IMG/VR virus record: IMGVR_UViG_3300024319_000003
Coordinates: 62,001 to 126,000 of that record
Direction: 5' to 3' (one strand)
From: a virus
DNA length: 64,000 nt
Positions 5,488 through 31,061 of the stretch are shown here, one piece after another (position 1 is the first letter of the stretch; each line of letters opens with the position of its first letter). The notes below the pieces were generated by a model. It saw nothing but the letters and a program-made list of their open reading frames with translations, was not told the origin of the DNA and did no database searches. Both the position numbers and the translations under genes were made by a program.

Positions 5488-5967
5488 ATGGTAACAACCC
5501 CAGGCTGGACATACAATTCAAAACTCATTACTGACATAAGCGAAATGCCAACAGGCTCTTATGGGTTTATTTACGAAACATTTCATAAACCTTCGGGTAA
5601 AAAGTACTTAGGTAAAAAAGTTCTATTCTTTGAACGTAATAAAAGACTAGGGAAGAGAGCTTTAGAGGCCTTAAGAGAAGAAAGAAAAGCAAAAGGAATT
5701 GGAGGAAGAACACCGTTAAAACAAAAAATAATAACAGAATCAGATTGGAAGACTTATTACGGATCACATAAAGATATTTTAAAGTACGTTAAAGAAGGTT
5801 CCCCAATGGACTTTGAAAGACGTATACTATGTTTTGTACCCAATAAGAAGTTACTTACATACTATGAATGTAAATACCTATTTATAAACGAAGTACTGGA
5901 GAACCAGGATGCATATATTAATGATAATATCCTAGGAAAATTCTACAGAAAAGACTTTACATTATGA
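5488..5967 (+). CDS. GIY-YIG-type endonuclease (159 aa)
   Basis: Residues 26-44 read GFIY, nine residues, then KYLG followed by KK. This is the GIY-YIG signature with conservative changes and the usual SGK turn between the halves. A YYGSH motif (near residue 90), an FERRI motif and a later Glu in YYECKYLF fit the rest of the nuclease domain. T4 has related enzymes: the Seg homing endonucleases and DenA, which cuts host DNA. At 159 residues this is little more than the catalytic domain. It could be a free-standing homing enzyme or a host-DNA nuclease. It follows a host-type promoter and overlaps the next gene by 4 bases. Confidence 0.6.
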   Translation: MVTTPGWTYNSKLITDISEMPTGSYGFIYETFHKPSGKKYLGKKVLFFERNKRLGKRALEALREERKAKGIGGRTPLKQKIITESDWKTYYGSHKDILKYVKEGSPMDFERRILCFVPNKKLLTYYECKYLFINEVLENQDAYINDNILGKFYRKDFTL

Positions 5968-6386: not shown

Positions 6387-7556
6387 ATGATTAGATTAAC
6401 TGAAATAATAGGAAAACCATCACTTAAGTACCATATAGATAACAGTCTCTCTTTATATGAGAATGTCTACCGTTATTCTAGCGATAGCTTTATACAATTA
6501 TTTGCTGAAGCAAGAGACGCTTATAGAGACGGTAAAATTCAACTTAACGAAGAAGATTTAAAGTTAATAGAAACAACAGATATAGGGCTATATGGAGTAT
6601 ATGAAGGAATAAAAGTACCATTAGATTTACCTATGTTAGAAGAATCTAAATATGATAAGGAAGAAACTATTCAACAAACAATTGATAGATTAAAAGCGAG
6701 AATAGCCGACCCAAATGATGGAGGGAATGTGCCTTTTTTAACCCAAAAAATAAAAGATTTAGAAAAATCATTAGATGAATCATTTTCTCAAAAAGATTGG
6801 GATGTAAAATGGAAGTTGCCTAAAGACAATTTATTTAATGCAACTAAAACTATAAATGCAACTAATAATAGGTACAAAGCTATACGATCCTTACTAAAGG
6901 CAAAACCTACAGAATTAAAAGCCTTTGATGACACCGATAATCACCCAGCATACGATATGTCTTATGATGAGTTAATGAAATGGTTTAAAAACCTAAAAGA
7001 ACCAGTTAAAGAAGCTAAATCTATACCTGAGTATATTGTAACTAAAGACGATCACCGTAAATCAAAATTCCCTTTCCATAAACTAAGAAACAGTGAATTT
7101 AAAATTAAAATAGCTGGACAAGGTAGAGATCAGGACTACATGATTTTTTGGAAAGAAGGAGACATAGGATACTGGGAATGGGAAGCAGGTAATATGAAAA
7201 GACAGTTAAGAAGCGCTTTGCTGGCCATAGCTAAAAGAAAACTACCTATAAAAGGTCAATTAGATGAAGCAGAATACAAAGGTAAAGATGTACCTCTAAA
7301 TAAACCAAAACGTGGAGGTTCTAAAAAATTCTACGTATACACAAAGAATAAAAAAGGGAATGTTGTAAAAGTATCTTTCGGAGGTACAACAGGTTTAAAT
7401 GTTAAGATAGATGAACCTGGAGCAAGATCATCATTTGCTGCACGTCATAAATGTGCAACTAAAAAAGACAAAACAAAACCAGGATACTGGGCTTGTAATA
7501 TTGGACGTTATTGGAAATCATTAGGTGGAAAAAGAAACTTCTCAGGATATTGGTAG
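6387..7556 (+). CDS. Unknown protein with a C-terminal ARHxC...PGYWAC module (389 aa)
   Basis: The N-terminal half is helical and charged. From about residue 295 it has the modules YKGKDVPLNKPKRGG and KKFYVYTKNKKGNVVKVSFG, then FAARHKCATKKDKTKPGYW followed by AC. I recall this basic two-Cys module from many uncharacterised marine phage proteins; no biochemical role is known to me. The leader region (MIRLTEIIGKPSL) resembles the shared leader but lacks the early Glu; an LFAEA site lies further in, near residue 49. The last 32 bases overlap the next gene. Possible internal virion protein, by inference. Confidence 0.5.
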   Translation: MIRLTEIIGKPSLKYHIDNSLSLYENVYRYSSDSFIQLFAEARDAYRDGKIQLNEEDLKLIETTDIGLYGVYEGIKVPLDLPMLEESKYDKEETIQQTIDRLKARIADPNDGGNVPFLTQKIKDLEKSLDESFSQKDWDVKWKLPKDNLFNATKTINATNNRYKAIRSLLKAKPTELKAFDDTDNHPAYDMSYDELMKWFKNLKEPVKEAKSIPEYIVTKDDHRKSKFPFHKLRNSEFKIKIAGQGRDQDYMIFWKEGDIGYWEWEAGNMKRQLRSALLAIAKRKLPIKGQLDEAEYKGKDVPLNKPKRGGSKKFYVYTKNKKGNVVKVSFGGTTGLNVKIDEPGARSSFAARHKCATKKDKTKPGYWACNIGRYWKSLGGKRNFSGYW

Positions 7557-7800
7557 ACCGTACTTAGATGACGGTGATATTAGATTCTTCAATCAAAACA
7601 CAGATGAAGATGAATTTGTTTGGCACAAAGACCGAGAGGATCGGTATGTTGTAGCAATGCATAAAACAGACTGGCAATTTCAATTTGATAATAACCTTCC
7701 CGTTTCTTTAGATGATAACAAGCTATTTATACCAAAGGAAGTGTACCACCGGCTAATAAAAGGCACAGGAGACTTAACCCTTAAAATAGAACGCAAATGA
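7525..7800 (+). CDS. Small cupin-like protein, GTG start (91 aa)
   Basis: The only available start is a GTG inside the previous gene, giving a 32-base overlap; no ATG follows in frame before the conserved part. The core has VWHKDREDRYV, then DNNLPVSL, then IPKEVYHRLIKG. This arrangement (paired His, an acidic turn, then IPKxxYHRLxKG) resembles a single-stranded beta-barrel of cupin type, and I recall similar short proteins in marine phages. Metal binding by the two His residues is possible. The gene is coupled to its neighbours on both sides (4-base overlap with the next). Function unknown. Confidence 0.5.
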   Translation: MEKETSQDIGRPYLDDGDIRFFNQNTDEDEFVWHKDREDRYVVAMHKTDWQFQFDNNLPVSLDDNKLFIPKEVYHRLIKGTGDLTLKIERK

Positions 7801-8228
7801 AATTAACTAATATCATATTCGAAGGCTTTAGAGAAGACGCTTCAACTATAAACGGAAAAAAATACTCTGTTAACTGGCTAGGCACAGCTGATACTTTAGA
7901 AGATTTTAAAAAAGCAATAGATAGAATGCCTAGTACTATAAAATCTATAAGTATACCTACTAATACAACCATCTTTAAGACCAGCAAAGATACACAAACA
8001 ATTAAACCGGAAGGTTCTTGGAAAAGTGATGTTATCACAACAGTCGGTAAAGTAGTAAAAGCCCATATGGATAAAGGAGATGATTTAGAAGGTATAAGAA
8101 TTAACTCCTATTACGGAACTGGTCCTAAAGGATCTGACGACCATCCAATTTACATAAGTGTACTTACAAAACAAGCTCGTAAATTTGGAGATGATATGCA
8201 TTCCGGTAAACATGGTTCATTAGATTAA
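7797..8228 (+). CDS. Unknown leader-bearing protein (143 aa)
   Basis: MKLTNIIFEGF is a clear copy of the shared leader, with candidate cleavage I-F-E|G after Glu9. The rest is a mixed alpha/beta soluble domain without recognised motifs, membrane segment or cysteines. A GSWKSDVITTVGKVVKAHM stretch could form one helix. The start overlaps the cupin-like gene by 4 bases and the kinase-like gene follows after 5 bases, so the three are co-expressed. I infer a packaged internal protein; what it does is unknown. Confidence 0.5.
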   Translation: MKLTNIIFEGFREDASTINGKKYSVNWLGTADTLEDFKKAIDRMPSTIKSISIPTNTTIFKTSKDTQTIKPEGSWKSDVITTVGKVVKAHMDKGDDLEGIRINSYYGTGPKGSDDHPIYISVLTKQARKFGDDMHSGKHGSLD

Positions 8229-8233
8229 AAGAT

Positions 8234-8662
8234 ATGAGACTATCACACGTAATATTAGGAGAGATTCTTTACTACGATCCCGGGTTTGAAAAAGAAGTAG
8301 AGAAAGTAAAAGAACTTGGAGGGAAGTATCTAGGCTCAGGAGATTACGGCTCTGCATATCTTCTAAACGGTAGAGTTTATAAAGTAACAACTGATTCAAT
8401 AGAGTTAGAACATGCACATATACTTAAAGGTAAAAAAACAAATAACTTTGCTTTTATATACGATGTAGAAGAGATTAATGAAAAGTTAGGAATAATTCAA
8501 ATGGAAGTGCTAGGAGAATTTAAAGGAGATATTCCTGAAGAATGGATTGAAGCAACTGAAGCTGAAGCACAAAGGATGGGACTCGACCCAGAAGAACTAG
8601 ATATAAGACCATCAAATGTAATGGTAAATCAAAAAAATAAACTGAAATTAGTTGATATTTAG
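8234..8662 (+). CDS. Minimal protein-kinase-like protein (142 aa)
   Basis: All core kinase signatures are present in order: glycine-rich loop GSGDYGSAY (residues 34-42), VYKVT with the ATP-binding Lys50, a Glu in the following helix (57 or 59), MEVLGEF at the hinge, DIRPSNVMV with catalytic Asp123 and Asn128, and Asp141 in LVDI, equivalent to the DFG aspartate. The chain ends one residue after Asp141, so the activation segment and most of the C-lobe are missing; known protein kinases are about 250 residues. The N-terminus MRLSHVILGE resembles the capsid-targeting leaders (cleavage after Glu10). It may be an injected kinase, a kinase-fold regulator or a small-molecule kinase. Confidence 0.6.
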   Translation: MRLSHVILGEILYYDPGFEKEVEKVKELGGKYLGSGDYGSAYLLNGRVYKVTTDSIELEHAHILKGKKTNNFAFIYDVEEINEKLGIIQMEVLGEFKGDIPEEWIEATEAEAQRMGLDPEELDIRPSNVMVNQKNKLKLVDI

Positions 8663-8680
8663 AATTATTTTTCTTATATT
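8652..8680 (+). promoter_or_regulatory. Promoter, TTGATA-N17-TATATT type
   Basis: TTGATA at 8652-8657 and TATATT at 8675-8680 are 17 bases apart; the ATG of the primase is at 8707. The upstream box overlaps the last codons of the kinase-like gene. Same geometry as the sites at 5453 and 13534. Confidence 0.6.
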
Positions 8681-8706
8681 ATAAGATAATAGTTACGGAC
8701 AACTAC

Positions 8707-10412: not shown

Positions 10413-11249
10413 ATGAAAAAGTTATTATTTTTACTAGTATTATTAACAGGATGCTCTTCTTTACAGGTAAGCACCTTAAATCACGATCCTAACTATAGCA
10501 TACAAGGATCAGATGCAGAAATAATAGTAATAGATAATGAGTTTGAACTTCAACGACTATTAAGAACAGATTTTAATTTTAGATTTGACTTTGCTCAATA
10601 TGCGTTAAGTCAACCCATATCATTTGATTGGAATAATCGTATTCTAGGTAACAGGTACAATAGGTATAATCCATACTACGGGTTAGGTTATAGTCCCTAT
10701 TGGAACAGAACTCAAATGTGGAACGATTGGGCATGGGGTATCACACCTCATAGATGGTCACCATTTGGATACGACAGATGGGGGTATAATAACTACGGTT
10801 GGAATAACTACTACGGATGGCACAATTGGAACTATTATCCTAATTATAATAGAGGATGGAATGCAACATACATGTACGGTAGAAGAAGTGTTAATATAGT
10901 TCCTTCAGGTAGAAGATTAAGACAAACTACAAGAAGAACTCAAACAGTAGACGAGATTGCAGATATAATTAAACTAGAAGTAAGAAACCGAAGAACAAAT
11001 AACACGACAGATGATAAAATTATCAACACTAATACTAGAGGACAGATCCGCACCCAAAGCAATAATAATGGCGGGAGGAGCAGGATCAGGGAAAACGTAC
11101 CTACTCAACCAATTAGGACTAGACAGCCTAGTACAATTCAACCCAGACAAGTACGTGGAGGACAAAGACCACCCGTATTACAACAAACTAGGACCAGCAG
11201 CCAATCAAACGTCCAAAGACGCAATGGCAGCAGCAGAAGAAAAAACTAG
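10413..11249 (+). CDS. Secreted lipoprotein, Tyr/Asn/Trp-rich, Bacteroidota-like (278 aa)
   Basis: MKKLLFLLVLLTGCSS is a textbook type II signal peptide with lipobox L-T-G-C (Cys14 lipidated). The middle (residues about 75-150) is extremely rich in Tyr, Asn, Trp and Gly, and the C-terminus is Arg/Gln/Ser-rich and ends RRNGSSRRKN. This layout resembles flavobacterial hypothetical lipoproteins, so the gene may be host-derived. A phage lipoprotein could block superinfection, as T5 Llp does, or help lysis; neither is shown. The last 239 bases also encode the N-terminus of the P-loop kinase in another frame. No earlier stop exists, so the overlap is real if both genes are expressed. Confidence 0.65.
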   Translation: MKKLLFLLVLLTGCSSLQVSTLNHDPNYSIQGSDAEIIVIDNEFELQRLLRTDFNFRFDFAQYALSQPISFDWNNRILGNRYNRYNPYYGLGYSPYWNRTQMWNDWAWGITPHRWSPFGYDRWGYNNYGWNNYYGWHNWNYYPNYNRGWNATYMYGRRSVNIVPSGRRLRQTTRRTQTVDEIADIIKLEVRNRRTNNTTDDKIINTNTRGQIRTQSNNNGGRSRIRENVPTQPIRTRQPSTIQPRQVRGGQRPPVLQQTRTSSQSNVQRRNGSSRRKN

Positions 11250-11952
11250 CTTTGTTTGGGATACTACTGCATCCGGAGCAGGCTTCCAAAAAAATCTAGA
11301 TAAATTACTTGCAACAGGCTACCAGGTCTATATGGTTATGGTGTATGCTCACCCTATGATTTCTTACGTTTCTAACTTTATGGCTAGGGAAAGAAATATT
11401 CCTGGCGATTCTGTATTTGCTACCTGGAGAAATGTGTATACTAAAATAGAAGACTTTAACAGACAGTTAAAAGGTAACTTATCTATCTTTGTAAGTGATA
11501 GAGGCGGTAAATATAAAAAAGAAGTTGAAGGATTTGATAAAGCTGCTAAAAGTGGCTTAAGTGGAGTAAAAGATTATTTAGAGAAATTTAATCAAGATAA
11601 TAATGTCGGCGGCTCTTCCTTCTTTGTACCAGTAGAGATGACACCTGAAGAAGAGCAACAATTTATAAAAGATGTTGGTAGTATAGATTGGGATAAAGAA
11701 AATAGATCAGAAGACAAAGCAATTAAAACTGCATTTCTAAAAGCTTACAGAAAGAACGGAGCAGGCCCAGGACAGGATAAGCTTAAAGCAGCAGTTCAAA
11801 AGTATAGAGACAGCAATATAAAAAGAAAAGGAAAAGCAGATGAAGTTCTAGATAATATTGTAGATATGATATACAATCCAACATTTCAAGAAAAATTAAA
11901 TCACTCCTCAGTAGGAGAAATAGACTCTAAAGTACAATCATTTTTAGCATGA
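11011..11952 (+). CDS. P-loop kinase, zeta-toxin/polynucleotide-kinase-like, with capsid-targeting-like leader (313 aa)
   Basis: A Walker A motif GGAGSGKT spans residues 22-29, followed by FNPDKY, a FVWDTTASG strand (Walker B-like position) and a basic ARERNIPGD stretch, as in zeta-toxin and T4 polynucleotide-kinase relatives. The last 130 residues are charged and helical. The N-terminus MIKLSTLILED carries the shared leader with candidate cleavage I-L-E|D after Glu10, just before the nucleotide-binding domain. The first 79 codons overlap the lipoprotein gene out of frame. The stop overlaps the next start by 4 bases. The substrate could be nucleic acid ends or a sugar nucleotide. Confidence 0.7.
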   Translation: MIKLSTLILEDRSAPKAIIMAGGAGSGKTYLLNQLGLDSLVQFNPDKYVEDKDHPYYNKLGPAANQTSKDAMAAAEEKTSFVWDTTASGAGFQKNLDKLLATGYQVYMVMVYAHPMISYVSNFMARERNIPGDSVFATWRNVYTKIEDFNRQLKGNLSIFVSDRGGKYKKEVEGFDKAAKSGLSGVKDYLEKFNQDNNVGGSSFFVPVEMTPEEEQQFIKDVGSIDWDKENRSEDKAIKTAFLKAYRKNGAGPGQDKLKAAVQKYRDSNIKRKGKADEVLDNIVDMIYNPTFQEKLNHSSVGEIDSKVQSFLA

Positions 11953-30482: not shown

Positions 30483-31061
30483 ATGGCACAATTACTTATA
30501 GAAGTTACATCATTTAATCCTATTCTAAGAGAATCCAAAGAAAGACCTGGAGTATACGAAGTAGAAGGAGTTATGCAAAGAGCAACTGCAAAGAATCAAA
30601 ATGGTAGAACTTATAGTAAAGCTATTTTAGAAAGAGAAACTAAGAAGTATATCTCTGAATTTGTTTCAAACGGTAATGCATTTGGAGAATTAGATCACCC
30701 TGAGTCTCCCATTGTCTCTCTAAAGAACGCTTCACACATAGTAAAAGACTTATGGTGGAAGGGAAACGACCTTATGGGACGTGTGGAACTACTAAATACA
30801 CCTTCAGGTAATATTGTAAAAGAAATAATTAAAGCAGGACACACTATAGGGATATCATCTAGAGGAACAGGCTCAGTACAACAAACAAATGAAGGAGCAT
30901 TAGAAGTGCAAGATGATTTTGAATTGGTATGTTGGGATTTTGTATCTAATCCTTCTACTCATGGAGCATTTATGAATCCTATTTCACTTAATGAAGGAAA
31001 AGGTAAGGCATCTAAGTTTATTAAGCTGGATGCAATCTTAAACGATATACTAAGAGCTTAA
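30483..31061 (+). CDS. Prohead core protease, T4 gp21-like
   Basis: GELDHPE holds the conserved catalytic His72, and TIGISSRGTG holds the nucleophilic Ser (125 or 126), as in T4 gp21 and the related herpesvirus-type assemblin fold. The size (192) is near that of T4 gp21 (212). The T4 enzyme cuts scaffold, capsid and internal proteins after [LI]-x-E, so it is the expected processor of the leader-bearing proteins in this window. It lies among the head genes, and its stop shares a base with the next start. Confidence 0.9.
   Translation: MAQLLIEVTSFNPILRESKERPGVYEVEGVMQRATAKNQNGRTYSKAILERETKKYISEFVSNGNAFGELDHPESPIVSLKNASHIVKDLWWKGNDLMGRVELLNTPSGNIVKEIIKAGHTIGISSRGTGSVQQTNEGALEVQDDFELVCWDFVSNPSTHGAFMNPISLNEGKGKASKFIKLDAILNDILRA

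Follow-up and report, generated by a model that had tools for sequence, protein, structure and literature searches.

A predicted reduced kinase-fold protein ending at the metal-binding Asp, a candidate head-packaged protein of a T4-like Bacteroidota phage

Described small kinases, packaged phage proteins and the gene studied here

A protein kinase domain typically comprises 250–300 residues, and the T7-type phage kinases, including gp0.7, are made after infection. Small kinase domains with a reduced C-lobe are known among the host-delivered proteins SteC and OspG, which keep the helices after the catalytic loop; in the minimal kinase SteC these helices are required for activity, and the pieces 210–375 and 200–377 were inactive (PMC13395416). 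Loss of the catalytic Asp has a precedent in SelO, which lacks this residue and yet transfers AMP (PMC8097203). The T4 proteins IPI-III and Alt are packaged into the prohead with a short N-terminal propeptide, a capsid-targeting sequence of 10–20 residues that is removed there by gp21 (PMC5694885; PMC9958956). Kinase folds of 159–200 residues are also present in other phages. Small unnamed reduced folds, such as those of Serratia phage Yaphecito (168 aa) and Xylella phage Cota (199 aa), are alike by structure comparison; compared with the family described here on fold, identity and length, they show ~15–20% identity and are 15–60 residues longer; this family is shorter and bears a leader.

The window analysed in the present study, a stretch of 64,000 nucleotides, corresponds to bases 62001–126000 of a 167,696-base virus record. 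Among named phages, relatives of its gene at 8234–8662 were found only in the Flavobacterium immuto group, among them QQO91857.1 of phage vB_FspM_immuto_2-6A (annotated as a hypothetical protein; 146 aa, 41–45% identity), which resembles the window protein in predicted fold, end point and gene order before the primase but carries Ser in place of the catalytic Asp (SIKMDN). Since the host of immuto is Flavobacterium, a Bacteroidota host is suggested here. We consider it about an even chance that the gene encodes a head-packaged, injected, Mg-ATP-binding reduced kinase fold of a T4-like Bacteroidota phage, acting as a docking module, a partner-completed enzyme or a pseudokinase. An earlier note, made from the letters alone, had described a 142-residue open reading frame with a glycine loop, Lys50, Asp123, Asn128 and Asp141, and its coordinates, length and residue positions were all reproduced. 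The features used below, all on the + strand, are as follows.

8234..8662, +, gene of the predicted minimal kinase-fold protein; complete, 142 aa, ATG start, TAG stop (open reading frame, common end of the homologues, AlphaFold/Foldseek)
8234..8263, +, leader MRLSHVILGE, residues 1–10, proposed capsid-targeting sequence (pLDDT <50; same leader on unrelated proteins; predicted cleavage after Glu10)
8333..8350, +, glycine loop GSGDYG, residues 34–39 (Gly36, Tyr38 and Gly39 identical in 99/99)
8381..8383, +, Lys50, the beta-3 ATP-binding lysine, in YKVTTD (invariant, 99/99)
8402..8404, +, Glu57, which likely pairs with Lys50 from helix C (invariant, 99/99; in model helix 55–64)
8537..8575, +, single C-lobe helix, residues 102–114, helix-E equivalent (AlphaFold secondary structure)
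8600..8602, +, Asp123 in DIRPSN, equivalent of the catalytic (HRD-type) Asp (Asp in 73/99)
8615..8617, +, Asn128, metal-binding Asn of the catalytic loop (invariant, 99/99)
8654..8662, +, Asp141 (DFG-Asp equivalent, in KLVDI), Ile142 and stop codon (Asp invariant, last residue Ile/Val, nothing beyond in 99/99)
7797..8228, +, preceding gene, which shares the leader (here MKLTNIIFEG); its slot holds variable cargo in relatives
30483..31061, +, T4-type prohead (head maturation) protease, which would cut the leader (phrog_207, E 3.3e-54)

Predicted fold, common end point and active-site residues

According to the structural models, the 8234–8662 protein almost certainly has a kinase fold. The AlphaFold model of the window protein (28 homologues; pLDDT 86.7, pTM 0.79) contains a five-stranded kinase N-lobe with the glycine loop, the beta-3 Lys and helix C, built from helix 16–27, strands 31–35, 39–44 and 47–52, helix C 55–64 and strands 75–82 and 85–90, and followed by one helix (102–114) and strands 129–131 and 137–139. 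The same fold was predicted for the immuto homologue (pLDDT 87.8, pTM 0.81), both models being based on shallow alignments of 27–28 rows. So, a predicted structure lacking the kinase N-lobe, which the earlier note had named as grounds for abandoning the idea, was not obtained. Foldseek gave 336 (window) and 288 (immuto) PDB matches at E≤1e-3, and those listed were kinases or pseudokinase domains, e.g., MEK1, NEK7, CDK2, MKK4 and TYK2 JH2; the TM-scores against full kinases were modest (0.4–0.6), which is to be expected for half a domain. The best match among viral models was a family member of 146 residues; phage kinases and unnamed proteins ranked next, several of them with 159–200 residues.

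Sequence profiles gave weak matches. The best one, the T7 gp0.7 kinase family phrog_15752 (E 2e-4), covered only residues 22–114, i.e., profile positions 61–157 of 260, and was matched by 24 of 28 homologues at E≤1, more weakly in other members; gp0.7 is thus the nearest sequence profile but a much longer protein, and full-length similarity to its profile was not found. HipA-like kinases (PF20613) scored 14.6 bits against a Pfam cut-off of 27, and the Pfam search of the window protein as a whole remained below the cut-offs. No significant match was obtained in the PDB sequence search with the window protein, NCBIfam gave none, and PADLOC matches were at chance level only.

The viral-contig scans recovered more than 160 loci, and the final alignment, drawn from 163 loci, comprised 99 distinct sequences, all full-length, of 142–147 residues; no homologues were found in the bacterial and archaeal genome collection scanned. 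Two metagenomic copies of the gene (L156:4001-4438 and L160:4001-4436) are each split in two by a frameshift, owing to either assembly error or decay. The chain ends at the position of residue 142 in all 99 sequences, with Ile or Val always the final residue, and the earlier observation that the protein stops one residue after Asp141 therefore holds for the whole family. Homologues longer by at least 100 residues, which would have identified the window copy as truncated, were looked for among the 99 and none was present. Mutational truncation is rejected for this family, since so many distinct homologues end exactly at Asp-(Ile/Val)-stop. A kinase split between adjacent genes was also considered and rejected for the window, where the next gene is the primase; in immuto, the next gene encodes a leader-bearing protein of 182 residues that contains hydrophobic stretches and by inspection is not a C-lobe. 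The median pairwise dN/dS of the family is 0.14, i.e., as judged from the coding sequences, the gene is under purifying selection.

Fifteen residues are identical throughout the alignment (Gly29, Gly36, Tyr38, Gly39, Lys50, Thr52, Thr53, Asp54, Glu57, Ala61, Phe72, Leu85, Asn128, Lys138 and Asp141), among them the metal-binding Asn and the DFG-type Asp. The position of Asp123 is variable: Asp is found in 73 of the 99 sequences, and Ser, Arg, Lys or another residue in the 26 of a freshwater clade that includes immuto. Position 127, immediately before Asn128, carries Asp in 56 of the 99 sequences and Ser in 39, and five sequences lack Asp at both 123 and 127; a SelO-like reaction by means of an Asp beside the Asn is therefore no rule of the family. 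The clade of the window retains the full set of Lys50, Glu57, Asp123, Asn128 and Asp141. Given invariant ATP/Mg residues together with a variable Asp123, nucleotide binding emerges as the conserved property, with phosphotransfer not guaranteed. Selection on the family as a whole thus seems to act on the binding of nucleotide and metal; the protein probably binds Mg-ATP, and phosphotransfer may be confined to certain clades.

The earlier note had further pointed out that no activation segment or helical C-lobe follows Asp141, and this was borne out: one C-lobe helix (102–114) precedes the catalytic loop, and the activation segment, helix F and the remainder of the C-lobe, as expected of an active kinase, are absent in 99/99. 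This lowers the claim that the protein is a kinase, leaving untouched the claim that it is a kinase-fold nucleotide binder. The "minimal kinase" of the earlier note is thus supported with respect to the predicted fold; what speaks against a kinase in the strict sense is that the catalytic Asp is missing throughout one clade, in which the ATP/Mg residues are retained. Loss of this Asp does not in itself prove inactivity, as the AMP transfer by SelO demonstrates (PMC8097203). SteC and OspG, compared here from their published description and without demonstrated sequence kinship, resemble the window protein as small domains with a reduced C-lobe that reach a host, as is proposed for it, and differ from it in the retained helices. 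Because a SteC piece that stops shortly after its catalytic loop shows no activity (PMC13395416), the window protein likely depends on a partner or has a non-catalytic role.

Leader and gene neighbourhood

Residues 1–10 are the sole segment of the window model with pLDDT <50, and most probably they constitute a capsid-targeting sequence. The motif (L/I)xE with Glu at residues 8–13 was found in 14 of 28 genes in the 5.9–32.9 kb block, the limits of which were chosen after the genes were seen, compared with 9 of 156 genes in the rest of the genome (Fisher p 4e-8); at control positions of the same 28 genes, it occurred in seven at residues 14–19 and in one or two further in. This block extends through the terminase, portal, T4-type protease and capsid genes. 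In the related loci, 257 of 1007 distinct proteins start with M(K/R/I)Lxx(I/L/V)(I/L/V/F) or a near variant, compared with 0–1 at six internal offsets, and the pattern is carried by 11 clusters with unrelated bodies. The leader-like N-terminus of the earlier note thereby gained independent support, being both disordered in the model and shared with unrelated proteins in the vicinity of head genes and of a prohead protease of the T4 type. It agrees with the T4 propeptides in position, length, cleavage motif and protease type, as a 10–20-residue N-terminal leader with a prohead-protease motif in a genome that has a T4-type protease; the bodies of IPI-III and Alt are unrelated to the window protein, which would be packaged and cleaved in a similar way. 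In about 26% of the homologues, Gly occupies the position of Glu10, either because the Glu is shifted by one residue towards the N-terminus or because the leader is a different one; the protease may therefore not cut at precisely the same site throughout.

The order of the GIY-YIG gene, leader genes, kinase-like gene, primase and exonuclease is kept in most of the 162 loci and in immuto. The kinase-like gene itself lies between the tail and replication genes, outside the head block proper, which counts against a packaged protein. The slot immediately upstream (7797–8228) holds many different short proteins in the relatives (loci L004-L174), and nearly all of those in marine clades open with MKLxx(I/L)(I/L)(L/F)xE or similar.

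Several other elements of the region deserve mention. The gene at 11011–11952 encodes a zeta-toxin-like kinase (PF06414, E 4e-12) with the leader MIKLSTLILE and is a second candidate injected enzyme; a lipoprotein-like open reading frame at 10413–11249 (MKKLLFLLVLLTGCSS...) overlaps it by 239 bases in a different frame. The 6387–7556 protein, in comparison with its immuto orthologue (185 aa), has ~204 extra residues between 86 and 291, with flanks 74% and 95% identical. The product of 5488–5967 is a GIY-YIG SegE-type endonuclease according to Pfam (E 1e-23) and an NAD synthetase according to PHROGs and the immuto record, and the latter label looks like a misannotation of this family. The gap at 8663–8706 before the primase contains an AT-rich stretch (TTTTTCTTATATTATAAGATAATAGTTACGGA) that is conserved in nearly all relatives and is perhaps a promoter.

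Proposed role and its alternatives

In the proposed scheme, the protein would be a virion internal (ejection) protein of a T4-like Bacteroidota phage. The leader would direct it to the prohead core, where a gp21-type protease would cut after Glu10; the mature chain of ~132 residues would bind Mg-ATP via Lys50, Glu57, Asn128 and Asp141 and enter the host along with the DNA. In the host, it would most likely serve as a nucleotide-binding module docking on a host, possibly defence, protein. In the clades keeping Asp123, phosphate transfer could take place once a partner or a second copy supplied the missing substrate-binding surface, while in the immuto clade the protein would act as a pseudokinase. 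That a virion-delivered fold ending at the metal-binding Asp is catalytically competent, with its active site completed by the C-terminus of the chain itself, by a second copy or by a host protein, appears possible but doubtful.

The different assumption that the protein is self-sufficient, i.e., a minimal kinase or nucleotidyl-transferase directly modifying host proteins after injection as T4 Alt does by other chemistry, draws on the complete residue set of the window clade, on gp0.7 as the nearest profile and on SelO, by analogy with which even the immuto clade could be active (PMC8097203). It is nonetheless unlikely, as the protein has neither an activation segment nor helix F, the place of substrate binding in SteC, as pieces of SteC with a comparable extent show no activity (PMC13395416), and as the catalytic Asp is missing in 26 sequences, five of them also without Asp at 127. 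The view that 8234–8662 is a kinase fragment, mutationally truncated or separated from a C-lobe encoded elsewhere, could appeal to the usual size of kinase domains, but it is scarcely credible in light of the common end residue, the low dN/dS and the absence of an adjoining C-lobe frame, the primase gene lying <150 bases downstream in 127 of 162 loci.

Two further alternatives concern delivery. If the leader were, e.g., a common translation-start or docking motif, the protein would act only inside the infected cell in the manner of T7 gp0.7; the adjoining primase and exonuclease genes and the synthesis of T7-type kinases after infection would accord with this, and the literature searched yielded nothing usable on immuto virion proteomics or phage virion kinases. 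The concentration of the leader around the head block on unrelated proteins, its disorder outside the fold in both AlphaFold models and its resemblance to T4 propeptides with regard to size, position and cleavage motif make this explanation improbable. Also improbable is a structural or scaffolding role, with the kinase fold as only a stable shape in the prohead or capsid and without function in the host: both the leader and the prohead protease do point to the head, but the invariant ATP/Mg residues would be hard to explain, and the adjacent leader proteins, which include the zeta-toxin-like kinase, are highly variable, as expected of host-interacting cargo.

If the kinase-fold protein is delivered by the virion and catalytically active, its ~132-residue chain would rank with the smallest kinases or nucleotidyl-transferases and would act within the first minutes of infection; activity would also lower the minimum size at which a kinase fold can work and cast doubt on the requirement for helix F and the activation segment. 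If it is a pseudokinase, it would represent a head-packaged nucleotide-binding effector, a class for which no description was found in the literature searched. In both cases, the conserved leader and the adjacent variable cargo slot would provide a sequence handle for injected effectors in Bacteroidota phages.
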